Shown: positions 18,296-35,331 of the stretch, in pieces
How the letters are laid out: each line of letters starts with the position of its first letter
Position numbering within the stretch: the first letter of the stretch is position 1
Assembly (NCBI GenBank): GCA_016744705.1
Contig: JADGDU010000023.1
Coordinates: forward strand, 1 to 64,000
Direction: 5' to 3'
Length of the DNA: 64,000 nucleotides
From: Candidatus Krumholzibacteriia bacterium
GTDB lineage: Bacteria > Krumholzibacteriota > Krumholzibacteriia > LZORAL124-64-63
The notes under the pieces: generated by a model
Told to the model about the DNA's origin: nothing
Databases searched by the model: none
What the model saw: only the letters and a program-made list of their open reading frames with translations
Position numbers and translations under genes: made by a program

Positions 18296-19204
18296 CTACA
18301 CTTTCGGCAAAAAGGCCAAAAGCAGCTTGGCCATGCGGGATCGCACCATGATCCCCACTTCCACCACATCCTGATGGGACAATTGGGGCTGGCCCGTTTC
18401 CCGGGCCGGGTTCGTAATGCACGACAAGCCCACGGGATTAACGCCCAAGCGCTTCAGAAGCACGGTTTCCGGAGCCGTGGACATACCCACCGCATCGCCG
18501 GCAATGCGCCGCAGCATGCCAATTTCTGCCTTGGCCTCATAAGGAGGACCATACATGCTCACGTAAGTTCCGCTGTGCATAGGCACACCGGACTCAGCTG
18601 CAGCCTCAACCAGCAATTTGGCCAGGTCCGGATCAAAGAGGTGAGAGACACCTCCACTGCGGCCAATGGCAGCCAAGGCTGCCAGTTCTTCCGCCGGAGG
18701 AAGCAAAGGCTGGCCCTTTTCGGGTACCGGAGCAAAAGGATGGGTCAACAATCCCCGCAGGGGGTCATTGAAATGAAAGTCGAGTTGGTCGCGGATGACC
18801 ATCAGATCGCCAGGAGTATAGAAGCGGTTCAACCCGCCGGCTGCATTGGTCACCACCGCCGTTTCAATGCCCAGACAAGCCAGAACGGCGGTGGGCAGCA
18901 ATAGCTCTTCAGAAGGAAGTCCTTCGTAGGGATGAAGGCGTCCCTGCATGACAATGACCGGCACACCCGCGGCGGTGCCACAAACCAAACGGCCGGTGTG
19001 TTCTGCAACAGAGGTGGTGGCGTATCCAGGAATGTCTCCATAATCCACGGCCCGGGGGTCATCCACGGCGTCAACAAAATTGCCGAGACCACTGCCCAGA
19101 ATCAGCCCCACTTTTCCGTGGAAACCTTCACCCTTCAGAAAATCTACGGCTTCGCCCACACGAGCTCGCCAGCTATCCGAGAGCAGATTCAAACGTTCGT
19201 TCAT
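18296..19204 (-). CDS. punA: Purine nucleoside phosphorylase
   Basis: Trimeric-type PNP of 302 residues that splits purine nucleosides with phosphate to base and ribose 1-phosphate. Typical elements are LILGSGLGNF (phosphate loop), MQGRLHPYEG, TNAAGGLN and GPPYEAKAEIGML with the purine-binding glutamate. The asparagine in SCITNPA matches the 6-oxopurine-selecting residue of this class, suggesting inosine and guanosine as substrates. The start overlaps the adenosine deaminase stop by four bases (ATGA), indicating translational coupling: deaminase product inosine would feed directly to this enzyme. Confidence 0.95.
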   Translation of the reverse strand: MNERLNLLSDSWRARVGEAVDFLKGEGFHGKVGLILGSGLGNFVDAVDDPRAVDYGDIPGYATTSVAEHTGRLVCGTAAGVPVIVMQGRLHPYEGLPSEELLLPTAVLACLGIETAVVTNAAGGLNRFYTPGDLMVIRDQLDFHFNDPLRGLLTHPFAPVPEKGQPLLPPAEELAALAAIGRSGGVSHLFDPDLAKLLVEAAAESGVPMHSGTYVSMYGPPYEAKAEIGMLRRIAGDAVGMSTAPETVLLKRLGVNPVGLSCITNPARETGQPQLSHQDVVEVGIMVRSRMAKLLLAFLPKV

Positions 19205-20310
19205 GAAGACCCTTCCTTCAGGCCATCGAGGGCAAATTTATCCCGTAGGCTGGTCATGGTAGCCAGAGCTTGCTGGACCATGGGACCTTTTTCAGCTTCC
19301 GGCAGGAAAGCACTTTTGAATCCATTGAGCAGCAGATGTTCCGTTTCCAACAAAGTCATATCGAAGGTATCCACCGCCAGGCGCAACTCCTTGAGAGGAC
19401 TGGTGTCGGCAAAGAGCGTATTGTCGCAATTGAGGCAGACACGCACCCCTTCCTTCAGATAAAAACGGAAGGGATGATGGGCCAGATCGGAAACCACACA
19501 GCTTTGCAGGTTGCTGCTGAGACAAACTTCCAGAGGAATCCGGTTGTCGGCCACATAGGCCATGAGATCGCGATCTTCTTCCAGCCTGGTGCCATGTCCA
19601 ATGCGGTTGGCACCGCAACGGTGCAGGGCCTGGTGGATGGATTCGGGCCCAAACCCTTCGCCTGCATGAATGGTCAGGTTCTGGTTGTTGTTCATGGCAT
19701 GGTAGAACGATTCCTGATGCAGCTTTGCCGGATGATCTTCTTCATCGCCAGCCAAATCGAAAGCCACCACGCCCCGGTTTTTCCAGGCCACCGCCAACCG
19801 GGAAAGCTCCAGAGAGCTGGCCGGGTCGATGGTGCGCAGACCAGTGACGATGATGCCAGTGCGAATTTCGGTTTCGGCTTCGGCCCGGACCAAACCCGCC
19901 TGGACCGCAGCCACGGCCCCATCGGCAGTCAGGCCCTCTTTGGTGTGCAGCAGGGGGCAGAAGCGGACTTCCAGACGCCATACTCCATCAGCGGAAAAGT
20001 CCATGGCCAGTTCGTAGGCCACCCTTTCCAGATTCTCCTCGTTTTGCAGCACAGCCAAGGTGTGTTCAAAGTGGAGAAGAAAATCATGCATGCTGCATTC
20101 ACGGTCTGAAGGGAAATACTTTTTTCGCACCTCGGCTGGATCCTCGGGCATATCCAGGCCTTCAGCCCGACCCAACTCCATGAATGTATCCATGCGCAAC
20201 GAGCCATCAAGGTGGCAATGCAAATCCGTTTTGGGCAAAGCCATGAGCAGTTCGTCGGGAATTTCAGTGCCCCGCAAAAGATCGCTGGGCCGGTACTGAC
20301 TGGTGTTCAT
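19201..20310 (-). CDS. add: Adenosine deaminase
   Basis: Zinc enzyme of 369 residues converting adenosine or deoxyadenosine to inosine or deoxyinosine. It shows the metal-binding HCHLDGS motif near residue 31, HAGEG (zinc histidine and proton-transfer glutamate), GHGTRL, SNLQSC and CDNTLF with the final zinc aspartate. The ATG follows AAAGGATCGAAA. It is second in a minus-strand purine salvage run, 25 bases after the deoxynucleoside kinase and overlapping punA by four bases. Confidence 0.96.
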   Translation of the reverse strand: MNTSQYRPSDLLRGTEIPDELLMALPKTDLHCHLDGSLRMDTFMELGRAEGLDMPEDPAEVRKKYFPSDRECSMHDFLLHFEHTLAVLQNEENLERVAYELAMDFSADGVWRLEVRFCPLLHTKEGLTADGAVAAVQAGLVRAEAETEIRTGIIVTGLRTIDPASSLELSRLAVAWKNRGVVAFDLAGDEEDHPAKLHQESFYHAMNNNQNLTIHAGEGFGPESIHQALHRCGANRIGHGTRLEEDRDLMAYVADNRIPLEVCLSSNLQSCVVSDLAHHPFRFYLKEGVRVCLNCDNTLFADTSPLKELRLAVDTFDMTLLETEHLLLNGFKSAFLPEAEKGPMVQQALATMTSLRDKFALDGLKEGSS

Positions 20311-20335
20311 TTTCGATCCTTTTGGGTAGAGGCCA

Positions 20336-21028
20336 TCAAGCCGTTTGGCTTCGGTTGTGTTTTTCCAGATGCAAGGTGCGGATCAAGCCCAACAAATCAG
20401 ACTGGGCCTCAAAATCGTCTCGCAAATTCACAACCTCAGTATCCAGAGTGCGAACGGGACAAAGGGCCGGTGCCCGTTCAATCCAGTCTCCGTAGGCAGC
20501 ATGCAGATCCTTCAGAAAATCCAGAGGGATATCCGACTCGCAATTGCGGGCCCGCTGCTTGATGCGGTTTAATGCTGTCTCCGGTTGGCAATCCAGATAG
20601 ATGATCAGATCTGGTGGCTGCAAAAAGGCTGCCATATTGCGGAAAATTTCCCGGTAGTTTTCGTAATCCCGATCATCCATGCAATCGCGGCGGTGCAGGG
20701 TGGGAGCAAAAATTTCCACATCTTCATAAATGGTCCGGTCCTGGATGGCGGACCCGGGCTGGTCCAGAATTTCTTTCTGCACCTCGAAACGCTTGCTCAG
20801 AAAATAAACCTGAAGATGGAAACTCCACCGTTTCATGTCCTGGTAGTAGTCATCCAGATAAGGATTGTTAATGACCGGTTCGTAGTACATGCGCCAGCCG
20901 AACACCTCGCCAATCATGGTGGTGATCATGCTCTTTCCCACGCCGATATTTCCGGCAATGGACACATAAAATGGTGTCTCGGGAATGTCTTTGCGGGGGA
21001 ATTGTTTTTTTAGGGAATTGATATTCAC
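20336..21028 (-). CDS. Deoxynucleoside kinase (dAdo/dGuo type)
   Basis: Protein of 230 residues from a GTG codon preceded by GGAG and a seven-base spacer. It has the P-loop GNIGVGKS near residue 27, the substrate-binding EPVINNPYLDDYYQD segment, the DRT form of the DRS motif (IQDRTIYED) and an arginine-rich lid, RIKQRARNCE, as in bacterial dAK/dGK enzymes. It phosphorylates salvaged deoxynucleosides to monophosphates. First gene of a salvage run with add and punA: the kinase retains deoxypurines while the other two degrade them, so the balance would decide their fate. Confidence 0.93.
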   Translation of the reverse strand: MNINSLKKQFPRKDIPETPFYVSIAGNIGVGKSMITTMIGEVFGWRMYYEPVINNPYLDDYYQDMKRWSFHLQVYFLSKRFEVQKEILDQPGSAIQDRTIYEDVEIFAPTLHRRDCMDDRDYENYREIFRNMAAFLQPPDLIIYLDCQPETALNRIKQRARNCESDIPLDFLKDLHAAYGDWIERAPALCPVRTLDTEVVNLRDDFEAQSDLLGLIRTLHLEKHNRSQTA

Positions 21029-22540: not shown

Positions 22541-23686
22541 CTAGGGCGTAAAAGGAATCCCTGGGTTTCTATCCTGGAATTCTTCTGATGAAATATATTT
22601 GAAGATGAGTCCATCATCCGGCACCATGACAAAAAGATAGGCAGCATAGAAGGTTGACGAGGGATTAACCTGCCGGTCCAGAACCGAGATGCTCACCGGA
22701 CGGCGATCCACATCGGCATCAACCACAAAGTGGAAATCATATAACCCGTCCTTAAAAATCTGAACACGACTGTTTTCTGTGTCGCAGACAAAGGATCGCG
22801 CGCTGCCGTCCATCCCCACACCAAAGGGTGAATGGAATTCACCAGGCTCCTCACTGGGCGCCCCCTCCCAACTGGTCTCTCCACATCCGGGAGCATTGCC
22901 CATCACATAAACGGCCGTGGGCTGGACCGCGCACCCTTCGTCCACACGGAAGGGAACGGCGAGCCCCCGCATGGGATCAATATCAGTTTCATCAGGTGTC
23001 GTGTCCAGAGTATCGGGAGTGCTGTCAAAACGAATGACCCAGTTGCGTTCCGGATCAGCATCGCAAACCAGAAGCCGGCCCTCAAGATCGACAGATAGTC
23101 CCCCGACTTCGTGAACAAAACGAGCCGACTGGCCCTCGCCATTGGCCAGAATACCAAAAGGGATCAACTCCCATGTTTCCAGGAAGGCATAGCGATGAAT
23201 CACGCCGCTGGTGGGGTCAGACAAATACAGGAACGTAATGCCCGAAGGAACCAATTCGATGCCACTGGACTGGGTCACCATGGAAACTGCTGAAAGCACT
23301 CCCGGCAACGTAGCCGAACCAAGAAAGGTCAAATCATCTGTCTGGTACCAACTCACACTGGTGTTGGCCTCGTCATAAACAAAGACCACATTCAGAGATG
23401 GCATTACGCACAGAGAGGTGGCATTGCCAAACCCAGTCACTGGAGTCACTCCTTCATTGGCCTGAAGGTATTGGTCCATTTTGCTGAGCGTATTGCCGTG
23501 GAGCAGGAACAAGGCTCCCAAATGATCCACCAACTGACGGGGATCATCAATGTGATCGTAGGCCGCAGCCTCTTTGTAGGCACTGACGGAGAACAATCCC
23601 TTAGGCTCGGGAATAGCAATCTTCTCTCCACAACCGGAGATCATCAGACCCATCATCAACAGTAAAAGCAGAGTTAGTTTTTTCAT
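22541..23686 (-). CDS. Lipoprotein with NHL-like propeller, surface operon gene 5
   Basis: Protein of 381 residues with a lipoprotein signal ending ISGC at residues 16-19. The mature chain has spaced repeats of the NHL/SMP-30 kind, for example GLSVDLEGRLLVCDAD and FGVGMDGSARSFVCDTENSRVQIF, which fit a single propeller. Its ATG shares one base with the stop codon of the PorV-like gene, so translation is coupled. It is the fifth gene of an overlapping set encoding surface and outer-membrane proteins, and its likely place is on the outer membrane with the receptor or barrel. No catalytic residues are evident. Confidence 0.85.
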   Translation of the reverse strand: MKKLTLLLLLMMGLMISGCGEKIAIPEPKGLFSVSAYKEAAAYDHIDDPRQLVDHLGALFLLHGNTLSKMDQYLQANEGVTPVTGFGNATSLCVMPSLNVVFVYDEANTSVSWYQTDDLTFLGSATLPGVLSAVSMVTQSSGIELVPSGITFLYLSDPTSGVIHRYAFLETWELIPFGILANGEGQSARFVHEVGGLSVDLEGRLLVCDADPERNWVIRFDSTPDTLDTTPDETDIDPMRGLAVPFRVDEGCAVQPTAVYVMGNAPGCGETSWEGAPSEEPGEFHSPFGVGMDGSARSFVCDTENSRVQIFKDGLYDFHFVVDADVDRRPVSISVLDRQVNPSSTFYAAYLFVMVPDDGLIFKYISSEEFQDRNPGIPFTP

Positions 23687-24732
23687 CAGTTTCTCCTTCG
23701 CCAGGCATCGTCGGCCTTACGCCTGAAAAGAGGGGACAAGTCCACCGAAATTTGGTGGGTGGTCCCAAAACTGCCGTTGTCGCTGTAAGCATAATCGATG
23801 CGCACCAGGAACTGCTTGCGCTTGAGTTGCATACCAAAGCCGGCCGCAAAGCCACCTTCCTGGCGACTGGTTTCGAAACCGGCCCGCAGGAAGAGAACTT
23901 GATTGATGCCAAACTCGGAGCCCATACGGAAGCTTTCCTTGAAGTCCGAAGGGTGGTTGAAATCGGCAGTGGTTAACACGGTCAACTTCCGAGCCAGTTG
24001 CCAGGTTTTGGCAGCACCAAAAGAGCCCACCGTTGGAGCCGGGAAACTTTGGAATTCCGAACTGGCGTCAGCACCACTGCCCGAAGAGGGAGGCGAACCG
24101 CCCGGTTGAAGATCGCCACCAAAATTCTTCACTGAAAATCCGATGCGCATATCTCCGAGACCCAGGAAATACAGAATTCCCAAGTCAGCCAGAAAGGCTT
24201 TTGTCTGGTACTCGTCCAAATTTTCCTGGAAGTATTTCGCCGTAATTCCAATGGAAAACTTGTCGGTCATAGATCGGGCTATAGAAGCGCCAATAAAGAA
24301 CTGATTGGCATTAAAATAGTGGCCGGTGCCTTCCTGGTGGAATTCATCCGTGCGTAAAATATCACCCGAGCGAAGGGAGCCCATGCTCAGACCAAAACCA
24401 AAACTCTGCCGGCGATGGTGCCAACTCAGATAATCCAAGTCGATGCCAGCAGTGTATTCACTGTGGCTGGCAAAATAGTTGGTCCGGCCCGGTGTGCGCA
24501 TGATACCCGCTGGGTTCCAATACGCAGCAGCGCCGTCCGTGGCACAGGCCACATAGGCCTTACCCAGAGCAATGCCCCGAGCGCCCACCGGAATGCGCAT
24601 GAAAAGACCAGATGCCGTCCCCACACTGTCTTCACCATAAAGGCGCAAAATATCACCGGCCTGGGCAGAGCCAGTCAACGTGGCCAAAGCCGCCACCAAA
24701 ACAATCAGTGTTTTTACAGTTCTGTTTACCAT
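23686..24732 (-). CDS. PorV/PorQ-family outer-membrane barrel
   Basis: Protein of 348 residues starting MVNRTVKTLIVLVAALA, a cleavable signal peptide, with GGGTGAG before the ATG and the ATG overlapping the receptor stop. The family signature is in the N-terminus: FMRIPVGARGIALGKAYVA, then DGAAAYWNPAGI and repeated amphipathic strands to the C-terminus. In Bacteroidota, PorV is the barrel that receives type IX secretion substrates and passes them to the sortase-like PorU. Here it is encoded between a TonB-dependent receptor and a lipoprotein, close to a protein with a FlgD-like C-terminal domain. No PorU, PorK, PorL, PorM, PorN or SprA homologue is in the window. Confidence 0.88.
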   Translation of the reverse strand: MVNRTVKTLIVLVAALATLTGSAQAGDILRLYGEDSVGTASGLFMRIPVGARGIALGKAYVACATDGAAAYWNPAGIMRTPGRTNYFASHSEYTAGIDLDYLSWHHRRQSFGFGLSMGSLRSGDILRTDEFHQEGTGHYFNANQFFIGASIARSMTDKFSIGITAKYFQENLDEYQTKAFLADLGILYFLGLGDMRIGFSVKNFGGDLQPGGSPPSSGSGADASSEFQSFPAPTVGSFGAAKTWQLARKLTVLTTADFNHPSDFKESFRMGSEFGINQVLFLRAGFETSRQEGGFAAGFGMQLKRKQFLVRIDYAYSDNGSFGTTHQISVDLSPLFRRKADDAWRRRN

Positions 24733-27665
24733 GAGTAACTCACCCCCCAAAGCAGCGTGAGAGGGTTCTCGATGTAACTGGGATCAACCACGCCCTTGGC
24801 ATAGTCTTCGCTGTTGGTGGAAGCAACGTAGGGGTTTTCCTGGTTCTCTGAATCGTCCCATGTTTCCACCCATTGGGGATTGTAATCGCCAACTTTATAA
24901 CCATCTCCGGTGAACGGGTTCACCCGGCGGAAGTTTTGGTGGTTCAACAAATTCCGAACTTCCAGATAGATGGTCAGTTTCTCCCGACCATGGAAACGCC
25001 AGTATTTGTTGAAGCGAATATTGATGCTGCTCTTGTAGGGGCCCAGTTCGCTGTTGATTCCCCCACGTTCGTAGTCTTCAAAACCATTGTATTTCATGGG
25101 CGTGTAACGTTGGCCAGCCTCGGCTCGAGCCAAGAGGTTGAAACTCCAGTTGGGCGGCATGCGCCAGCCAAAGAGCTCAGGCCGGTCGTCGTCGAAAACA
25201 GAGAAGTCGGCGTTGAAACTCACAGTCCAGGGTTTATCCCACAGCAGGGGCGACCGGGTCAGCCCGCCAATGCTGGCCGTGGGTGAATAAGAGTCTTCAT
25301 AAGACGCCACCAGATAAGCTTCATTGGCATTACTGTTGGTACCCGTGGTGTGCTGGAATTCCAGGCTACCGGAGCCACTCAACCAACGGGTTGTGCGCTT
25401 GGTCACGGTCATTTCGATACCCAGACTGCGGGCGGAATCGCCATTGAAATAGCGCACCGGACTGATGGTCACATTACCCGAATCATTAGGGTCAGGTGTT
25501 TCTTCGGCACCGATGACCACTTCGTCCAAACGGACACTTTTTGCGTAATCGTAAATGTCACGGTTGAAGAACGTAACACCAAAACTCCACAGCCCACCAA
25601 ACTCATGTTGCAGCCCGGTTTCGTATTCGATGGTCACCTTCGGGTCCAGATTGGGATTTCCCAGCAACTGCACTTCGGTGGCTGTTTGTGCTTCGAGTTG
25701 AGGATACACATAGGCAAACCGTGGCCACTGGCTGAAGTGCCCATAGTTGAAGAAGAACTTGTCCCGCTCGGTCACGGGGAAACTCAGCCCCAAACGGGGA
25801 GACAGGCGCATCTTCCAGTTGCGTCCAAAGGCGTCATGGGTTTTTTCGTAAAACTCATCGGCCATGTCACCGGTGACAAACAAATAGTCATCGTGATTGG
25901 CCATGACATTTTCCACTTCCTGACCAGGAGCCCACCAATCGGCCCGCAGACCAGCATTGATAATCAGCCCCCGGTAATCAAGAGTGTCCTGAAAATACAA
26001 AGCTCCAGTGATGGGATGGGCCAGGAAGATATCTTCTTTCACGCCCAACTTGCCTTCGGGTGGCACACCCAGATTGGTCTGCAAATCCACCAATTGCATT
26101 TCCGTAAAGCTGAGATCGATTCCGGTTTTGAACTCGTTATTGCCCAGGCTCATGAATGAGTAGGAGCTTTTCAGAGTGTAGCTTTCGGAATAGTGATCGT
26201 GCCAACGGTCAGCACCGCCGGGAACCTGTCCATCGGGCTGGGAGATATACTCGGCCGGCAGACTGGGGTCCAGAGGATCCCAACCACTGATGGGTTCGTA
26301 CGTGGTAAAATCATCATTGCCATTAACATTGGCGTGCATCCGGTTGAAGTTCCGGCCGAGGGTGACCTCGAACCAGGAGTTATCATTCAACACCTGGCGA
26401 TAATACACCTGGGACAGAATGTTCTCGTTGGTAAAGACCAGATACTCATCGAGGCTATCCATGAAGGGTTTGGCATAACCTTCACCCGGCAGAGTGAATC
26501 CCTGGCTGATACCGATCTGCCTGCTCATGTTGATGTTCAGTTTGTGGCTGGGAGTGATGTGCCAGGTCCACTTGGCCAAACCGTTCCAGTTGTTTTGCTC
26601 ACGGGGAGACCAGATGTCCCCTTGATAGATGGGAGATGTCAGCGATTTCTGCCGGCTATAAATAGGCAAGTGCCCATCTCGGATATCCATGGAACCACTC
26701 AACAGCCAATATTGCTGGCCAGGCAGAGTCAGCCCCAGGGAGCGCAGTCCAGCGCTGATAGGGTCGGGACCACTGACACTGGCTTTGACGATATCCACAT
26801 TTTGGGATTCGCTGAAGTTGGTGAAATCTTGCCAGCCCCGGTGGTCATTTTTAGGAATGGTATTTAAGAGGTAATCCCGCTTAAAGCTAACCTGGCCCTC
26901 CACCCGGTCGCTGCCTTCTTTGGTGGAAATATTCACCACACCACTGACGGCCTGACCGTGCTCGGCGTTGAACCCACCAGTCAGCACTTCAATTTCGTTG
27001 ATAATGGAGGGATCAATTTGATAACCGTACCCACCACCGGCCAGAGGATCGCTCACGTTCATGCCATCCACCACAAACATGGTATCGTCGGCCCGGCCAC
27101 CACGGATATGAATCTCATTATCCTGCATGGTCACACCAGGAGCCAAGGCGACCATATCCACCATCTGATCCAGAGGCATGGCTTCCATTTGCTTACTGGA
27201 TATAAAGTGAGAGCTGCCTGTTCGTTCCACTTCAATGATGGCGCGTTCGGCTGCCACATCAAAAGGCTCAGCCAAAATGGCGTGCACTTCCAGACGGAAA
27301 TCCAGGTTGGCCACTTCGCCCGGAGCCAGGGTCACCGTCTGGGTGCCCAAGGTGTAGGAAATGTAAGAAGCCTTCACCGTGTAAGTACCCGCGGGGAGAC
27401 CACGCATGATGTAAAAACCATCGGTGAACGCCATGGTGCCGATGTTTGTACCACTGATGTAGACGTTGGTGTAGGGCATGGTCTCCCCCGTCTCATCATC
27501 AAAAATACGGCCCTTGATGGCCACAGTGTTATCCACCGGTTGGTCAACTTCAATCACCTGGGCATCCACTTGCAGAGTGGTTTGTTGCGCCACAGCGGGA
27601 TAGGGTGCCAACACCAGAGCCGCCGTCATGAAGCCAAGAAGGACGGCGTATTGCATTCGGGTCAT
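24726..27665 (-). CDS. Large TonB-dependent receptor with CarboxypepD_reg-like domain
   Basis: Outer-membrane protein of 979 residues. After a signal peptide (cleavage near AVAQ, residue 26) comes a carboxypeptidase-regulatory-like beta sandwich (about 47-130, VAIKGRIFDDETGETMPYTNV...GTYTVKASYISY). The plug spans about 150-255 (MVDMVALAPGVTMQDNEIHIRGGRADD, MFVVDGMNVSDPL, VSGVVNISTK), and the rest is a 22-strand-type barrel. This is a SusC-like or OAR-like architecture. The ligand is unknown and no SusD gene is adjacent. Start and stop both overlap neighbours by a few bases, so the gene is embedded in the surface operon. Alternatively, it may take part in export rather than import. Confidence 0.92.
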   Translation of the reverse strand: MTRMQYAVLLGFMTAALVLAPYPAVAQQTTLQVDAQVIEVDQPVDNTVAIKGRIFDDETGETMPYTNVYISGTNIGTMAFTDGFYIMRGLPAGTYTVKASYISYTLGTQTVTLAPGEVANLDFRLEVHAILAEPFDVAAERAIIEVERTGSSHFISSKQMEAMPLDQMVDMVALAPGVTMQDNEIHIRGGRADDTMFVVDGMNVSDPLAGGGYGYQIDPSIINEIEVLTGGFNAEHGQAVSGVVNISTKEGSDRVEGQVSFKRDYLLNTIPKNDHRGWQDFTNFSESQNVDIVKASVSGPDPISAGLRSLGLTLPGQQYWLLSGSMDIRDGHLPIYSRQKSLTSPIYQGDIWSPREQNNWNGLAKWTWHITPSHKLNINMSRQIGISQGFTLPGEGYAKPFMDSLDEYLVFTNENILSQVYYRQVLNDNSWFEVTLGRNFNRMHANVNGNDDFTTYEPISGWDPLDPSLPAEYISQPDGQVPGGADRWHDHYSESYTLKSSYSFMSLGNNEFKTGIDLSFTEMQLVDLQTNLGVPPEGKLGVKEDIFLAHPITGALYFQDTLDYRGLIINAGLRADWWAPGQEVENVMANHDDYLFVTGDMADEFYEKTHDAFGRNWKMRLSPRLGLSFPVTERDKFFFNYGHFSQWPRFAYVYPQLEAQTATEVQLLGNPNLDPKVTIEYETGLQHEFGGLWSFGVTFFNRDIYDYAKSVRLDEVVIGAEETPDPNDSGNVTISPVRYFNGDSARSLGIEMTVTKRTTRWLSGSGSLEFQHTTGTNSNANEAYLVASYEDSYSPTASIGGLTRSPLLWDKPWTVSFNADFSVFDDDRPELFGWRMPPNWSFNLLARAEAGQRYTPMKYNGFEDYERGGINSELGPYKSSINIRFNKYWRFHGREKLTIYLEVRNLLNHQNFRRVNPFTGDGYKVGDYNPQWVETWDDSENQENPYVASTNSEDYAKGVVDPSYIENPLTLLWGVSYSW

Positions 27666-29215
27666 GGAGAGACCCCCATCTCTTCGCTCAGGGTATGTTG
27701 CATGGAGGCGATGACCTGGTCTTGAGAAAAATACTCCAGCTGCAGAGCGTAACTGATAACCTGAGCCGGCTGGGGATTGCCATCATTATCCAGGCGAGGT
27801 GGGCGGCGGAAGGCCACCACTGGGTCCCAGGGGTCGAAATCGTTGTAACAACGCACACAATTCTCCAGGCGGTAAATGGGCTCCGAATAAGCCAGCAAAT
27901 CCAAACCCCGGCCTGAACCAAAGTTGATGGCCTTGTACATGACAGGCATAGCGGGTGCCTCCACCGCGGCCATGGCTCGTTTGCCCATGGGAATTTGCAG
28001 ATCACCACGCGGCAAAGCCAAGTTGGGCTCAACACCCAGATAATTTCTGATGAAGACCGGAGAGAGTCCCGTTTCCGGGGCTGGCTCAGTGATGAGTTTT
28101 GAAACCAGCATCAAACGACCACCCACATCCAGGTACTGGGCCATGGCCCCATCCCGGGAAAAAGTAGTTTTCATGACGGTGCTGGTGGTGGACCCACCAT
28201 CAGTCCATAAGACGATTTCAAATAACTTCATGGTCTCTAAAAGAACAAACGGCCTATCGGGGAACCCAAACACAAATTCATATTGGTCCCAGTTGTCCAC
28301 ACCAAAGGTCTCATCCAGGAACGCATAATAAAGTTCCCGTCCCGGTCCGGAGGCATTGTCGAAGAAGTACAGAATGGAATTCTTGGGAGCCCGAACTTCC
28401 CACTCGTACTGGAACCAGGCATCGCCACCGGCTTCGTCCTGCACCGAAATGGTTAAAGTCTTCTGGCCCGGGTTCACATTCTTGACAAAGATTTCAAATT
28501 CATAGGATGCAATACCAGGCTCAAATTCGGCCCGTATCCAGCCCGTTTCCACATCGGCATCGGGATCGTCCACATCCCATTCCTGGTCCGGATCGCCTTC
28601 GGCCAGAGTGTAGCGAAAATGGCTGTCCATGGTATCAATGCCATCAGGGTCATAAACGCCCAGCCGGAAGTTGGTGGGTCCCCAATTCCAATAGGTGAAG
28701 GAGTCGGGCTCGGCCACCAGATCCCGCTGCATGTTCTGCTTGGGATCATAGTTGGACTTGAACTGCACCACAGGAGGATGATTCCTCATGGGGATAAACT
28801 GGGAAACCGTATCACTCAAAGCACCCCGGTTGTCCTGACAGACAATGGAGATGGTGGCACTGGCTTCACCGGTCAGAGGATCCGGAGCGAAGGTCATGGT
28901 CGTATCGGTGGCCGTGGTGGTGTCCCAGGGGGCCGGCACTCCATCTTCAGGGCTGATGGAAACGAAGAAAGTACTCACAAAACCATCAGCATCGGAACCG
29001 CTCCAATGGAAGGTACGGTGGAAGTAACTGGTGGGATTGAGTTCATCTTCATCTTCAGGCGTATCCACAAAGAGACGGGCCACCGGCTGTAAATTATCCA
29101 GAACCTCCGGATCGAATGGCTCGTTAGCGGTGCAACCAAGCAACCCGATAACAATCATTACCAGAGCCAACAACAACAAAGACCAACCACGATTTTTTTG
29201 TTTCCAGGATCTCAT
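27662..29215 (-). CDS. Lipoprotein, surface operon gene 2
   Basis: Protein of 517 residues with a lipoprotein signal ending LLGC near residue 28. Residues about 45-150 look like an Ig-like sandwich (FHRTFHWSGSDADGFVSTFF), and a second sandwich follows (RLGVYDPDGIDTMDSHFRYT). The C-terminal half contains a Rossmann-like stretch (KNSILYFFDNASGPGRELY, then GGSTTSTVMKT and DVGGRLMLVSKL) that resembles class I amidotransferase-like folds, without a recognisable catalytic triad. ATGA overlaps join it to both neighbours. Its position before the receptor suggests a cell-surface partner, comparable in place only to SusD. Confidence 0.8.
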   Translation of the reverse strand: MRSWKQKNRGWSLLLLALVMIVIGLLGCTANEPFDPEVLDNLQPVARLFVDTPEDEDELNPTSYFHRTFHWSGSDADGFVSTFFVSISPEDGVPAPWDTTTATDTTMTFAPDPLTGEASATISIVCQDNRGALSDTVSQFIPMRNHPPVVQFKSNYDPKQNMQRDLVAEPDSFTYWNWGPTNFRLGVYDPDGIDTMDSHFRYTLAEGDPDQEWDVDDPDADVETGWIRAEFEPGIASYEFEIFVKNVNPGQKTLTISVQDEAGGDAWFQYEWEVRAPKNSILYFFDNASGPGRELYYAFLDETFGVDNWDQYEFVFGFPDRPFVLLETMKLFEIVLWTDGGSTTSTVMKTTFSRDGAMAQYLDVGGRLMLVSKLITEPAPETGLSPVFIRNYLGVEPNLALPRGDLQIPMGKRAMAAVEAPAMPVMYKAINFGSGRGLDLLAYSEPIYRLENCVRCYNDFDPWDPVVAFRRPPRLDNDGNPQPAQVISYALQLEYFSQDQVIASMQHTLSEEMGVSP

Positions 29216-31203
29216 TTGATGATCACCAGCTTTCCACGCTGCACTTCGCCGGTTTCCAGATCCGTCACCGCGTATATATAAAGTCCTGTGGCAACAGCGC
29301 GACCGTATTCAGTAAGAGTATCCCAGGGGGCCATACCCAGAGCCGGATTATCATGATCAATGGTTTTGACCACTTCACCCACCAGATTGAAGACCTGGAT
29401 GGTGCAGCGGGCCGGCAAACGGGTGAACCAGATTTTACGGCCCAGTTCCTGTTCACCGGTGGGATTATCGAAGAGGCTTGAAGCCCGATAAGGATTGGGG
29501 TACACCCCGACTCCGCTTCCTGAACTGCTGCCCGAGGGGCTCGGACCAGGATACACAAGTTTCCCGTTCTCATTAAATCCGCTTTGGAATTCACCCAGAC
29601 CTTCCAAGGGATTGGGGGCGCTGTAAGAAACAACCGAATACCAATAGGGGAAACCATCAAGCAGGTTGGTGTCGATGAATTCTCGTTTGCCCTCGTCATT
29701 CAAAGGCGGCAGCCCGGTATCAAAACCAATGCCATCGACGATATCAAATTGGGCCACCAGTTCGGAAATTTCATAAGGTTCATCGGTGATGTTCAAACCC
29801 TGATAACGGAATACCCGGTAACCTTGAAAATCTTCCTGCCCCGTGGCTTCACTGATGTGATGTTCGGGAGAACGCAAAGGACTATCGGATACCAAATCAT
29901 TGCCGTCTGCATCCAGGCTATCTCCAGGGGTCCAGGACAGGACCACCGAGTTTTCTTCGAAGCCAAAATCCAGAATTGGCGAGGGTGGCCCGCCAGGAAC
30001 ATTGAAAGAATCGTCATAAGCCAGCTGGGCCACTTTAGAATTGGACAGTAGGCTCAGAGAATCGGCACCCGCCACCACAGCAAAAGTGATGCTGATGGTA
30101 TCGTTGGGAGCCAGTAAAGGGAAAGGTCCAGTGGAAAGGATGCTCACCCAGTTGGAGGCGATACCGTAGTTGGCCTCCTGGGTTTCACCCACATCAAAAT
30201 GGCGGTTGCTCATGATCTGGTATTTTCCAGGCAACTCCACGGTGGGGTCGTCGGGATCCAGGTACACATCATCGGCCTGGGGCACATGCCGGAAGCCCCA
30301 TTGGTTATAAGAGACCGGCGATTGTCCCGCCAATGGCTCGGCAGATTCACTGGTACCCAGAAGCCGGTAACCGATCCAACTGGTAGCCAGTCCATCTTCC
30401 CCATCATCATCATGTTCGTAAGCCATCCAGATACCAGGATCGTTATCGGGAGTATGAGACGGATCCACGTAACCTGCGCCACCCCAGGCACCATTAAAAT
30501 CATCGTAATAATTCCAGGGGATAGCGGCGCTGCCATCATAGGGGTCGGTTTGTTCGGTATTACCAACGGTGGTATCCATCCACAAGCCCAGATAAAGGTC
30601 ACGCAATTCCCAGGGGCTGATGTTGACAATCCGGTAATTCAGCATGACAAAATCATCGGCGTAAGGCGTACTCCAGGCCAGTACCCGCATGTTGATCTTG
30701 ATGCCCAACGGGACATGTCCCCCGCCTTCGGGATTTGCATAGTCGTTGAAATTGCACTCGATGTGCTGGGGAGCCAGAGCGCTCAGGTCATAGTTGAGAG
30801 CATTCTGCAGGTTGGACATGACTCGGACCGAATCGTCCTGACAGAAACCGATGAGGTCAAATTCACGGATTTCATTTCCCGCACCCACGCCGTTGGCATC
30901 CTGGCTGCCAGTGGAAACGCGGACCTGGCCATCGGCCATGACCGCACCCACCCAGATACCACCGCTGTAAACATGTTCGGTGTTACTGTTCAGATAGTAC
31001 TCACCGGAAGGCAGGCGGCTGCTGAAAGAATTTCCGAGATAACCAAGGTTGGTAAGGCCCAAGCCCAGCAGCCCAACATTGGTGTAAAGATCTGTCCTGG
31101 CTGGCGGCTGGTCGCAGGGCTCGTCAGCCCACACAAGGGGATTCCAAACGGACGTGAGGATGGCCACCAAAAACAGGGCGATCAGGGTGTTGTGCTTCCA
31201 CAT
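29212..31203 (-). CDS. Secreted surface protein with FlgD/type-IX-like C-terminal domain
   Basis: Protein of 663 residues from MWKHNTLIALFLVAILTSVW, a signal peptide; an in-frame codon 19 residues earlier would bury it. The central 450 residues hold no catalytic family that I recognise. The C-terminal 90 residues have the FlgD Ig-like form: GVYPNPYRAS, IWFTRLPARCTIQVFNLVGEVV, MAPWDTL, ATGLYIYAVTD, ending GKLVIIK. In the FCB group such domains act as type IX secretion signals or are left on surface proteins. It is the first gene of the overlapping set, so it is likely made in the largest amount and may be the operon's substrate. Confidence 0.85.
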   Translation of the reverse strand: MWKHNTLIALFLVAILTSVWNPLVWADEPCDQPPARTDLYTNVGLLGLGLTNLGYLGNSFSSRLPSGEYYLNSNTEHVYSGGIWVGAVMADGQVRVSTGSQDANGVGAGNEIREFDLIGFCQDDSVRVMSNLQNALNYDLSALAPQHIECNFNDYANPEGGGHVPLGIKINMRVLAWSTPYADDFVMLNYRIVNISPWELRDLYLGLWMDTTVGNTEQTDPYDGSAAIPWNYYDDFNGAWGGAGYVDPSHTPDNDPGIWMAYEHDDDGEDGLATSWIGYRLLGTSESAEPLAGQSPVSYNQWGFRHVPQADDVYLDPDDPTVELPGKYQIMSNRHFDVGETQEANYGIASNWVSILSTGPFPLLAPNDTISITFAVVAGADSLSLLSNSKVAQLAYDDSFNVPGGPPSPILDFGFEENSVVLSWTPGDSLDADGNDLVSDSPLRSPEHHISEATGQEDFQGYRVFRYQGLNITDEPYEISELVAQFDIVDGIGFDTGLPPLNDEGKREFIDTNLLDGFPYWYSVVSYSAPNPLEGLGEFQSGFNENGKLVYPGPSPSGSSSGSGVGVYPNPYRASSLFDNPTGEQELGRKIWFTRLPARCTIQVFNLVGEVVKTIDHDNPALGMAPWDTLTEYGRAVATGLYIYAVTDLETGEVQRGKLVIIK

Positions 31204-31281: not shown

Positions 31282-31479
31282 CTCGCCTAAAGATTGCCTT
31301 TTCGGAGATCAGATTCAAGAGGCAAAGCCAATGATTTTACCATGGGCCACTGTAAACCGATAGACGAGCAGGGTTTCCATGTCCCTCCATCTGGACAATT
31401 CATGTGATATTTACCGGCTGACATGCTATTGTCCTTGTGCCGCGGAAATTGTTGCCTTCCATTGAACCATCGGCCTACC

Positions 31480-32961
31480 ATGAATTTGTTTATTCAAAGA
31501 ACTCCCATACACTCCAGCCAGCCATTCTGGCTTCTGGCCGAATTGTTTGCTGATCAGCCTTGCCGGTTCCTTCTGGATAGCGGGATGGACCCAGAAAAGC
31601 TGGGCCGTTTTTCCTTTCTGGGAAGCCGCCCAAGCGCCCTCTTGCATGCCAAACGCATATCCGGATCCAAGGGCCGGGATTTTCAGATCCATACACAACG
31701 CTGGCGATCCCCGGAGGGACTCCCTTTGGAAGGGGATGAAGCCTCCTTTCAAGGGGATCCATTCAGCGCCCTGGGTCAGCTTCAGGCTGATTATGGTATT
31801 TCGGAAGAGATGAGCCCTGGCGCCCCCTTCAGCGGAGGACTGGTGGGTTATATTGGATATGAAACAGCTCACGCGGTGGAAGATCTGCCGGATGAGGGGC
31901 TGGATGATCTGGACCTTCCGGATCTGGCGTTTATCGTGATCGATGAAGTGCTCGTCCACGATCATGTATCAGGTAAAACCCAACTGGTGGTCACTGGCCG
32001 CGGGCACACTGAAGAAGAGGCTTGCGCTAACGCCGAAACCCGCACCCGGGAATTGGAAAAGCTGGTGACTCAGTGGTCCCCATCACCTGAAACACCCCGC
32101 TCAGAACACCCCCCTGAAACCATCCGCGCCCACTTCACACGCGAAACTTACATGCTTGCAGTGGAGCGTTGCCGCCAACACATCCTGGCCGGCGACGTGT
32201 TTGAAATCTGCCTGACCCACCGGCTGGAAGCTGACCTGACGATGCACCCCTGGCAGCTATACAAACGTCTGCGAGCCATCAACCCGGCGCCTTTCGCTTC
32301 TTACCTGCATTTCCCCAACTTTCAGGTGGTCAGTGCCTCCCCCGAAAGATTTTTAAAGCTGGATGAAAACCGGCAAATTGAAAGCCGCCCCATCAAAGGA
32401 ACCCGCCCCCGCGGCGATAACCCCTGGGATGACCAACGGCTGCGCGACGAGCTGCAAAACTCGGAAAAAGACCGTTCAGAGAATGTGATGATCGTGGATT
32501 TGGTGCGCAATGATATCGGCAAAATGGCGGAGATTGGATCGGTGCAAGTGCCGGAGCTGTTGGTGGTCGAACCCTACGCCACCGTCTTCCAATTGGTCAG
32601 CACCATCACCGGCCAACTGCGACCTGACCAAAATCCCTTTGATTTGGTGCGGGCCTGTTTCCCCGGTGGATCCATGACCGGCGCCCCCAAAATTGAGGCC
32701 ATGAAAATTATTGATTCCATTGAGCCCGTAAAACGGGGAGTCTATGCCGGAGCCATCGGCTATTTTGATCGCAGCGGCATCATGGATCTGAGCATTGTCA
32801 TCCGCACCATGGTGTGTAAAGACGGTAAAGCCACCTTTGGAGTTGGCGGCGCAGTGGTGGCCGATTCGGACCCCGCGGCCGAATATCAGGAAACGTTGGA
32901 CAAGGCCCAGGCTTTGATCCAGGCCCTGGGAGGTGAACATGAGCACCATCATTCTGGATAA
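31480..32961 (+). CDS. pabB: Aminodeoxychorismate synthase component I (PabB-type)
   Basis: Chorismate-utilising enzyme of 493 residues. The C-terminal domain shows ERFLKLDENRQIESRPIKGTRPRG, EKDRSENVMIVDLVRND and CFPGGSMTGAPKIEAM. The PIKGT form carries the lysine of PabB enzymes; TrpE proteins have PIAGT. I therefore favour 4-amino-4-deoxychorismate synthesis for folate over anthranilate synthesis. The N-terminal 200 residues are the usual non-catalytic domain. The start MNLFIQRTP is preferred to an upstream codon that adds 19 unconserved residues. It overlaps the glutaminase gene by 23 bases. Confidence 0.88.
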   Translation: MNLFIQRTPIHSSQPFWLLAELFADQPCRFLLDSGMDPEKLGRFSFLGSRPSALLHAKRISGSKGRDFQIHTQRWRSPEGLPLEGDEASFQGDPFSALGQLQADYGISEEMSPGAPFSGGLVGYIGYETAHAVEDLPDEGLDDLDLPDLAFIVIDEVLVHDHVSGKTQLVVTGRGHTEEEACANAETRTRELEKLVTQWSPSPETPRSEHPPETIRAHFTRETYMLAVERCRQHILAGDVFEICLTHRLEADLTMHPWQLYKRLRAINPAPFASYLHFPNFQVVSASPERFLKLDENRQIESRPIKGTRPRGDNPWDDQRLRDELQNSEKDRSENVMIVDLVRNDIGKMAEIGSVQVPELLVVEPYATVFQLVSTITGQLRPDQNPFDLVRACFPGGSMTGAPKIEAMKIIDSIEPVKRGVYAGAIGYFDRSGIMDLSIVIRTMVCKDGKATFGVGGAVVADSDPAAEYQETLDKAQALIQALGGEHEHHHSG

Positions 32962-33520
32962 TTACGACAGCTTCACATTCAACCTCTATCAGTTGGTGGC
33001 CGGACTGCAAGATGGTGTGGAACCGCTGGTCTTTCGAAATGATGAAATCAATGTGGCGAGCCTGAGAGAGCGGCATCCCAAACACATCATCATATCGCCC
33101 GGTCCGGGCAACCCCGTGGACCACGCCAGTGTGGGAGTGTGCCGGGATGCCATCCTGGAATTGGGTGACTCGGTGCCTATTTTAGGCGTTTGCCTGGGCC
33201 ACTTGGCCATAATTGAAGCTTTGGGTGGAAAAATCGACCGTTCTCCCGAGCCCCGACACGGCAAAACCAGCTCCATTTTCCACCAGCAGGAAGGGATATT
33301 CAGCCAGCTGCCCAATCCTCTTGAAGCCATGCGGTATCATTCTTTAATTGGTTCAGAAAAACATATACCTGAGGATTTGCAGATTACGGCCAGAACCGCC
33401 GACGGCTTGGTCATGGGGCTCCAGCACCGCAAAAAGCCACTCTACGGGGTGCAGTTCCACCCTGAATCCATCGGAACACCCTTGGGTGTACAATTGCTGG
33501 GTAACTTCCTGCAGATTTGA
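32939..33520 (+). CDS. pabA: Glutamine amidotransferase subunit PabA/TrpG
   Basis: Class I glutaminase of 193 residues that would supply ammonia to the PabB partner encoded just upstream. It contains LDNYDSFTFNL, SPGPGNP, the nucleophile in GVCLGHL and the histidine-glutamate pair in QFHPES. The residue after GVCLGH is leucine instead of the glutamine found in nearly all family members, which may alter glutamine binding. GGGAGG lies six bases before the ATG, which is inside the pabB coding region. The same glutaminase could also serve anthranilate synthase, as in bacteria with one shared subunit. Confidence 0.9.
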   Translation: MSTIILDNYDSFTFNLYQLVAGLQDGVEPLVFRNDEINVASLRERHPKHIIISPGPGNPVDHASVGVCRDAILELGDSVPILGVCLGHLAIIEALGGKIDRSPEPRHGKTSSIFHQQEGIFSQLPNPLEAMRYHSLIGSEKHIPEDLQITARTADGLVMGLQHRKKPLYGVQFHPESIGTPLGVQLLGNFLQI

Positions 33521-33526
33521 GACAGA

Positions 33527-34750
33527 TTACAGGATGTGCTCGCGCCCACAACGGGGGCACCGCACCTTGGGCAGCTGGAATCCTGGGGGAATTTTCAGAA
33601 CGGCCCCACACTCGCATTCGTTGCGGCCATAGCCATCCTTCGCATAGAAAAAATTGTCCACCCGGCGGGCTTTGCCCTTGGGGTCATTGCGCACCCCGGC
33701 AGCAGTTCCCGCCTGGTCATCGCTCACGGCAGCGCGGCTGCCTTCCCGGGCACCGGCACCCTCCAAAGCGGACTTGGGAATGACACCACCTGAGCCTTTG
33801 ATCTTCTGATAGCTCTTGTCGTAATCGGCATAACCCGCCCCACCCATGGCCCGCAAAATTTTAATCCGCTCATCAATGGGAGGATGGGTGCTGGAACCGT
33901 TGGCCGCCATATGATCCTGGCGAGCCAGTGGGTTGATAATGTACATGGGAGCTGTGGCCTTGTTGGCCGAAGCCAGTTTCTCGGGAGACCGGCTGAGTTT
34001 CTCCAGGGCCGAAGCCAGCCCTTCAGGATAGCGGGTAAAAGAAGCCGCGGAAGCATCGGCCAAATATTCTCGTTTGCGGGAAACAGCGAAGTAAATAAGC
34101 TGGGCCATGATGGGAGCCAAAATCATCAGGACAATGGCCACAATCTGAATAATGCCCTGCCCGCCGCCATCACTGTCGCTTCTCCGGGAACGCCGGGCGC
34201 CGCCTCCAAACCACATGCCTCGCATGCCCACTTCGGCCAGCAGAACAATGGCCCCGGCCAGGACTCCGGCGAAGAGCATCAGCTGGATGTCCCGGTTGCG
34301 CACATGAGCCAATTCGTGGGCAATGACCCCTTGCAGCTCATCCCGGTTCAAGCTTTTCAGCAGACCACTGGTGACGGCCACGGCCGCTGTCTCCGGAGTG
34401 CGGCCCGTGGCAAAAGCATTGGAGGCTGGGTCATCAATGACATACACGTCGGGAATTTTGGGGAGGCCCGCGGCGAGAGTCATCTCTTCCACCACATTGT
34501 ACAGCACTGGCAAATCTGATTTATCCACTTTGCGGGCCTTGGCCATGGTCAGGTAGATGCTATCACCTTTAAACCAGGCCACCAAGGTCATGACAAACCA
34601 CACAACAACCGCCAGAACCACACCCATGGGGCCATACCCCTGGCCCGCAAAATACTCTGCCAGGAAATAGCCCAGCACCACCAGCAGGAGGGCCATGCCT
34701 ATGACCAGCAGAGTAGATTTGCGACGGTTGGCGGCTATTTGTTCCCACAT
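33527..34750 (-). CDS. htpX: HtpX-like M48 membrane metalloprotease with zinc ribbon
   Basis: Protein of 407 residues. Two N-terminal membrane helices are followed by the M48 domain with HELAH in VIAHELAHVRNRD, and two further hydrophobic segments, as in HtpX, a quality-control protease of the inner membrane. Unusually, a linker of about 120 residues follows and the chain ends in a four-cysteine zinc ribbon (CEC...CPRCG). The gene directly abuts lemA, and a zinc-ribbon protein gene lies one further gene upstream. Confidence 0.92.
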   Translation of the reverse strand: MWEQIAANRRKSTLLVIGMALLLVVLGYFLAEYFAGQGYGPMGVVLAVVVWFVMTLVAWFKGDSIYLTMAKARKVDKSDLPVLYNVVEEMTLAAGLPKIPDVYVIDDPASNAFATGRTPETAAVAVTSGLLKSLNRDELQGVIAHELAHVRNRDIQLMLFAGVLAGAIVLLAEVGMRGMWFGGGARRSRRSDSDGGGQGIIQIVAIVLMILAPIMAQLIYFAVSRKREYLADASAASFTRYPEGLASALEKLSRSPEKLASANKATAPMYIINPLARQDHMAANGSSTHPPIDERIKILRAMGGAGYADYDKSYQKIKGSGGVIPKSALEGAGAREGSRAAVSDDQAGTAAGVRNDPKGKARRVDNFFYAKDGYGRNECECGAVLKIPPGFQLPKVRCPRCGREHIL

Positions 34751-35311
34751 TTAACTGAAGTCCACCTTGGGAGCTTCGCGTTCAGCCTCATTTTCAAGCT
34801 CGAAGTATTTTTCAGCCGTGAAATTGAACATGCCGGCCACAATGTTGCTGGGGAACATCTGCACTTTGTTGTTCAAACGCATGACCACTTCGTTATAAAA
34901 CTGGCGGGCAAAACTAATTTTATTCTCAGTGCTGGTCAGCTCTTCCTGGAGAGCCAGAAAGTTGGTGCTGGCCTTCAGGTCGGGATAAGATTCCGAAACC
35001 ATCATCAGGCGACCGAGGGCTCCACTTAAGCCAGACTCTGCAGCCATGCGCTGATCCATATCTCCACCGGCGCCACCCACCGCGGCCCGAGCCTTGGTCA
35101 CAGCCTCAAGAGTTTCACGCTCGTGGGACATGTAACCTTTTACCGTTTCCATCAGGTTGGGAATCAGGTCATACCGGCGCTTGAGTTGCACGTCCACCTG
35201 AGCCCAGGCTTCTTTGACTTGGTTGCGTACAGCTACCAACCCGTTGTAAAGGCCGACCACCCAACCCACGACAGCGATAATCAGTCCAAGGAGAATAAGA
35301 AGAGGAATCAT
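34751..35311 (-). CDS. lemA: LemA family protein
   Basis: Protein of 186 residues with one N-terminal membrane helix (LLILLGLIIAVVGWVVGLYNGLV) and a long helical domain: VAVRNQVKEAWAQVDVQLKRR, then DLIPNLMETVKGYMSHE and ARQFYNEVVMRLNN. These are the typical LemA blocks. LemA proteins often pair with HtpX or with YgcG-like proteins, but their role is unclear. The second ATG of MKMIP has AAAGG at seven bases and is preferred. It directly precedes htpX with no gap. Confidence 0.93.
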   Translation of the reverse strand: MIPLLILLGLIIAVVGWVVGLYNGLVAVRNQVKEAWAQVDVQLKRRYDLIPNLMETVKGYMSHERETLEAVTKARAAVGGAGGDMDQRMAAESGLSGALGRLMMVSESYPDLKASTNFLALQEELTSTENKISFARQFYNEVVMRLNNKVQMFPSNIVAGMFNFTAEKYFELENEAEREAPKVDFS

Positions 35312-35331
35312 TTTCATACCTTTCAGGAGAA

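Follow-up and report, generated by a model that had tools for sequence, protein, structure and literature searches.

A recurrent five-gene cluster of Krumholzibacteriota and other phyla encodes a CTD protein, a PorV-family barrel and a TonB-dependent receptor, and may specify a surface uptake complex

Introduction

In Porphyromonas gingivalis, two outer-membrane barrels of the PorV family hold surface proteins whose C-terminal domains (CTDs) are retained: PorQ anchors PorZ and PorV anchors PorU (PMC5562754, PMC10202324). Cargo with type-B CTDs is served by dedicated PorP/SprF carriers in Flavobacterium (PMC12618676, PMC9143113). The biology of the type IX secretion system (T9SS) has so far been worked out almost solely in Bacteroidota, where type-A cargo has been reported on a single PorV carrier. 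TonB-dependent transporters can also be involved in secretion: in Myxococcus, Oar is required for the secretion of one protein, PopC (PMC6434023). Our searches retrieved no literature on T9SS in Krumholzibacteriota, and nothing on modules of the kind presented below was found in the literature on PorV paralogues and PorV-like proteins. As far as these searches reached, the module is undescribed.

Results

Gene layout and flanking regions

The window, i.e. the whole stretch of 64,000 nucleotides that was analysed, was placed on contig 71 of a Candidatus Krumholzibacteriota genome (4.43 Mb, 155 contigs, 95% complete). Five overlapping open reading frames had been noticed by a model that saw only the letters of the window (henceforth the sequence-only reading), and they are indeed present on the minus strand, where the consecutive genes A to E run from 31203 to 22541:

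29212..31203, minus strand: gene A, predicted exported surface protein of 663 aa (682 aa from TTG 31260) with signal peptide, large beta-sandwich region, FN3-like region and C-terminal T9SS-like CTD (ORF, profile searches, AlphaFold, Foldseek)
29212..29544, minus strand: CTD of A, covering its C-terminal ~110 aa (positions conserved across 16 sequences; hhalign to canonical CTDs)
27662..29215, minus strand: gene B, predicted lipoprotein of 517 aa with lipobox LLGC, N-terminal Ig/FN3-like domains and a C-terminal alpha/beta domain (ORF, AlphaFold, Foldseek)
24726..27665, minus strand: gene C, TonB-dependent receptor of 979 aa with CarboxypepD_reg-like domain, Plug and OMP_b-brl_3 (profile search)
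23686..24732, minus strand: gene D, outer-membrane barrel of the PorV/PorQ family that may alternatively start at TTG 24750 (NF033709, PDB sequence search)
22541..23686, minus strand: gene E, NHL beta-propeller lipoprotein of 381 aa, lipobox Cys 19 (PF01436 over cut-off)

Genes A and B as well as B and C overlap by 4 nt, D and E by 1 nt. The overlap of C and D amounts to 7 nt if D starts at ATG 24732, which is the start kept in relatives, and to 25 nt if TTG 24750 is used. A promoter scan was uninformative (4 found vs 7.1 expected). ExbB and TonB genes are absent from the operon in the window, and none of its metabolic neighbours is conserved across phyla. Upstream of A (31423-35317) reside PabB/PabA-like and HtpX/LemA-like genes, named from sequence reading, that are retained in several relatives. 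Downstream of E (18296-21028), genes for purine nucleoside phosphorylase, adenosine deaminase and a deoxynucleoside kinase are found, and these purine salvage genes stay beside the module in the same family (f1) and in locus L062 of its sister family f5. They were considered as a clue to the cargo and dropped, since dNK-ADA-PNP after E is limited to f1 and some f5 members, with no counterpart in other phyla.

Conservation of the five-gene set

In families f1 and f5 the genes occur in the single order A-B-C-D-E on one strand, with short overlaps that are mostly identical. C orthologues are present in most genomes of the family, and strong orthologues of B were detected by profile in 33 of 38 f1 genomes and in all four f5 genomes; orthologues of B and C are jointly missing from the same five f1 genomes, several of which are incomplete. 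Elsewhere in the class, families f3, f6, f7 and f8 do not contain a strong B orthologue, and a role as a BAM-like assembly machine was rejected on this ground. Named Candidatus Krumholzibacteriota MAGs contain C orthologues at 85-86%. A scan of named genomes with the C alignment returned records from Neomarinimicrobiota, KSB1, Calditrichota and LCP-89, and the flanks of the C loci were typed with profiles of A, B, D and E. Complete five-gene clusters are present in genomes of Neomarinimicrobiota, KSB1 and LCP-89. Beyond f1 and f5, 21 loci show the order A-B-C-D-E and six the cyclic order C-D-E-A-B. Partial sets were seen at 20 loci, one of them (L153) from f1, and most are truncated at contig ends; L134, with C alone, is the sole such case among the typed loci. 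The five genes are a true unit that recurs across several little-known phyla. That the genes are neighbours by chance or through an assembly artefact, a notion for which we found no point in favour, is refuted by recurrence in dozens of independent assemblies from several phyla and retains a negligible probability. Homologues lying apart in related genomes, which would have spoken against the sequence-only reading, are not an issue either, the genes being clustered in f1, f5 and other phyla. Across 37 loci, correlations between the tree distances of proteins A to E lie at r = 0.90-0.97. This is the pattern expected of jointly inherited genes; it supports a common history and cannot single out a contact between A and D.

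Many loci of Neomarinimicrobiota and KSB1 contain an additional gene between A and B, here termed X, that encodes a further CTD protein. Besides a canonical CTD, X (L113:5422-8355, L119:5710-8352 and similar) has parts of OB-fold, DUF5689 or CBM_56 type, and in some Neomarinimicrobiota it features a cytochrome-c-like motif.

Gene D encodes a PorV-family barrel and A carries a CTD

The assignment of D to PorV, on which the sequence-only reading hinged, survives profile search at the level of the family: D reaches 159.5 bits against PorV_fam NF033709 (cut-off 90) and thus belongs to the PorV/PorQ family. It stays below the equivalog cut-offs in the ranking PorQ, PorV2, PorV (PorQ NF033711, 84.9 bits vs 220; PorV NF033710, 55.5 vs 250). 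The single significant match in a PDB sequence search is PorV in the SprA complex (6h3i, E 6.7e-15), followed by weaker matches to the FadL-family proteins TodX and CymD at E 0.06 or worse.

The tail of A had been described as FlgD/type-IX-like. Its scores against FlgD_ig, CHU_C and the type-A CTD model TIGR04183 (13.4, 13 and 14.0 bits, the last vs a cut-off of 23) are all below cut-off. In profile-profile comparison by hhalign, however, the tail matches the CTDs of X with 97.6% and C-termini encoded upstream of PorV genes with 99.1% probability, and it exhibits the CTD motifs PNPYR, G..V, W, SGLYIY-type and GKLVIIK at positions conserved in 16 sequences. On this comparison, the tail of A is a homologue of canonical T9SS CTDs. 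Its best partial NCBIfam match is PorZ. PDB sequence searches with A and with B gave no significant match. The AlphaFold model of A (pLDDT 78) is beta-rich; Foldseek gives the best E-value to PorZ (5m11) with a TM-score of only 0.13, while GH94/GH116-type enzymes score higher (TM 0.24-0.28). The model of B (pLDDT 83) matches Ig/FN3 folds and also shows an alpha/beta domain. For both proteins, these structural comparisons are weak guides to function.

PorV-family genes are usually paired with CTD genes

A pairing of PorV-family genes with CTD genes was analysed for 57 PorV-family loci from nine genomes of the class, 56 of which have an upstream ORF on the same strand, mostly at a distance of -50 to +90 nt. 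A CTD was called when the last 150 aa of this ORF matched TIGR04183 at E 0.01 or better. This was the case for 34/56 upstream ORFs vs 7/106 random long ORFs (p ~1e-13, and p 4e-10 in the worst case without the nine PorU), both p-values overstating the effect because orthologous PorV loci are not independent. The tree of D and its relatives falls into about a dozen clades, most but not all of which have a CTD neighbour according to our own reading of the C-termini; two to three clades lack an upstream CTD gene. The exceptions are L198/L220 and one clade (L171, L179, L186, L192, L205, L211, L216) that regularly follows a gene for an NtrC-like response regulator instead. On C122 of the genome carrying the window (L047:7681-17498), a PorV-family gene overlaps by 4 nt with one whose 2585-aa product contains DUF11 repeats and has a CTD-like end. 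The idea of a PorV protein dedicated to a single substrate is supported in a general form, the PorV-family genes of the phylum being usually paired with a CTD gene.

T9SS genes elsewhere in the genome

The statement that no other secretion gene is in view is correct for the window and does not extend to the genome, where SprA, PorU, a canonical PorV and 141 CTDs are encoded on other contigs. SprA and PorU, for which a search outside the window had been proposed, were both found. SprA is a 2182-aa frame on C68 that scores over cut-off, and the canonical PorV on C11 is immediately preceded by a C25-peptidase gene, forming a PorU-PorV pair; this PorU is among 14 C25-peptidase matches in the genome. 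Since these T9SS core genes reside elsewhere, with PorU beside the canonical PorV, D is a paralogue. The 141 CTDs, detected by TIGR04183 in a genome of 4.4 Mb, belong to an organism outside Bacteroidota. Only one type-B CTD was seen, and it is marginal (35.6 bits vs 35); searching the genome for PorP/SprF (TIGR03519) yielded nothing over cut-off, and D itself had no match. SprA is over cut-off in 53/58 relatives and in 25/27 module genomes of other lineages. Some SprA match occurs in every genome tested, so that SprA presence does not discriminate.

A could also be an ordinary T9SS cargo of the general PorV and PorU, with D residing in the operon for another reason, e.g. as a FadL-like channel for hydrophobic compounds. 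Such an explanation would draw on the PorU-PorV pair on C11, on the weaker matches of D to TodX and CymD and on the position of A, which is not adjacent to D but separated from it by B and C. We consider it unlikely: PorV-family genes of the phylum usually follow a CTD gene, the CTD of A falls below the very model that detects the canonical CTDs in the genome, and D scores with PorQ and PorV, with FadL relatives appearing far behind. It is likely that D holds A.

Receptor and lipoproteins

In C, CarboxypepD_reg, Plug (PF07715) and OMP_b-brl_3 (PF14905) are all over cut-off, identifying it as a TonB-dependent receptor, and in E the NHL repeat PF01436 is over cut-off. Neither B nor E shows an evident lipoprotein export signal of the Bacteroidota type. 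A SusC-like N-terminal carboxypeptidase-like domain followed by plug and barrel, together with adjoining lipoproteins, might suggest a conventional SusCD-type nutrient receptor of a polysaccharide-utilisation locus. This is very improbable given 40.2 bits of C against the SusC/RagA model TIGR04056 (cut-off 368.25), the absence of any SusD-family match in profile searches of A, B and E, and the neighbours examined, among which no glycoside hydrolase family was seen and which downstream are purine salvage genes. SusCD membership was rejected on the model scores, leaving only the sense of "works like".

A sister module next to TonB and ABC importer genes

Contig C75 of the same genome (12406-29999; L041:407-18000) harbors one cluster with homologues of C, A and D, here named C', A' and D'. 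It is preceded by OppB/OppC/OppDF-type ABC genes for a peptide-type importer and followed by genes for GWxTD, ExbB, two ExbD, TonB and an outer-membrane efflux protein. The cluster is class-wide: 14 genomes from eight families share the arrangement of C', D', ExbB and ExbD, and A', TonB and the upstream ABC genes are matched in most of them. It is mainly because of this cluster that import is preferred over export for C, and the import direction and ligand of the window module are extrapolated from it.

The sequence-only reading had offered two interpretations. A dedicated export module is weakened by the T9SS translocon and the PorU-PorV pair elsewhere in the genome, because of which the operon need not export A itself. 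It is conceivable that the module is nevertheless a dedicated export or surface-assembly device, with C exporting as Oar does for the protease PopC, a known precedent for a TonB-dependent transporter needed in secretion (PMC6434023); the extra CTD protein X beside A in many loci would fit, as would the lack of any hydrolase or transporter gene conserved beside the module across phyla. With SprA, the T9SS export channel, being present in the genomes and the sister module clustering with a peptide-type ABC importer and TonB/ExbBD, we regard this as quite improbable. The other interpretation, a SusC-like uptake complex with a self-encoded partner, gains from C'-A'-D' residing beside ExbB/ExbD/TonB and usually an ABC importer, while its SusC part is contradicted by the SusCD results given above. 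Overall, that reading is supported in part, and uptake fits better than dedicated export.

Discussion

The best reading of the whole module, via homology with the sister cluster, would be a TonB-powered uptake complex. We lean towards a model in which the five proteins form one outer-membrane complex. A, equipped with a signal peptide, would cross the outer membrane through the general T9SS of the cell (SprA). Its CTD would be received by D, a barrel of the PorV/PorQ family dedicated to A, and D would leave it uncleaved, so that A is moored on the surface as is the case for PorQ with PorZ and PorV with PorU in Porphyromonas. Moored A and the putatively surface-exposed lipoproteins B and E would be positioned over or beside C, and the captured ligand would be imported by TonB-powered C. 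What the sequences themselves show is the set of genes in its conserved order, the CTD homology and family assignments, the PorV-CTD pairing and a T9SS encoded elsewhere; that the proteins associate, that D retains the CTD, that B and E face the outside and that C imports are inferences.

The module fits no single known family in our tests and mixes features of the PorZ-PorQ pair with those of complexes of TonB receptors and surface proteins. Possibly, though with slightly less than even confidence on our part, it represents a distinct class of machine in Krumholzibacteriota, Neomarinimicrobiota, KSB1 and related phyla, i.e. a TonB-dependent transporter whose surface subunit is a T9SS cargo kept with uncleaved CTD on its own PorV-family barrel; more generally, the PorV family would there have diversified into substrate-specific carriers, the role taken by PorP/SprF in Bacteroidota. 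From the pairing one would predict that, beyond Bacteroidota, every barrel of the PorV family has a CTD protein of its own to serve. The module would link surface delivery by T9SS with TonB-dependent transport, two systems usually handled apart, and a gene set that recurs in several uncultured phyla would gain a function.

Comparison with known systems

As in PorU-PorV and PorZ-PorQ, a CTD-bearing surface protein is combined with a PorV-family barrel, D scoring best with PorQ and the tail of A with PorZ. In contrast to these pairs, the genes for the two proteins stand in one cluster with those for two lipoproteins and a TonB-dependent receptor, A has neither a sortase nor the PorZ propellers, and a separate PorU-PorV is present in the genome. 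The Flavobacterium type-B CTD proteins with PorP/SprF resemble the module in that a carrier barrel, thought to anchor its substrate, is encoded with its own CTD substrate; D, however, is of the PorV family and the CTD is type-A-like. Type-A substrates of Flavobacterium johnsoniae, unlike the pairing found here, are reported to use one common PorV. With SusCD, RagAB and BtuB-BtuG the module shares a TonB-dependent receptor encoded with surface proteins, and BtuG is a propeller lipoprotein, as is E. It differs from them by the lack of SusD, a score below the SusC model, one partner predicted to be delivered by T9SS and a PorV-type barrel in the set. Finally, in the Bacteroidota BAM with FadL-family BamG and surface lipoproteins BamH-K (PMC12578637), a FadL-type barrel likewise holds extracellular proteins beside another barrel, but our module includes no BamA, and the search of the class did not recover it in several of the families.
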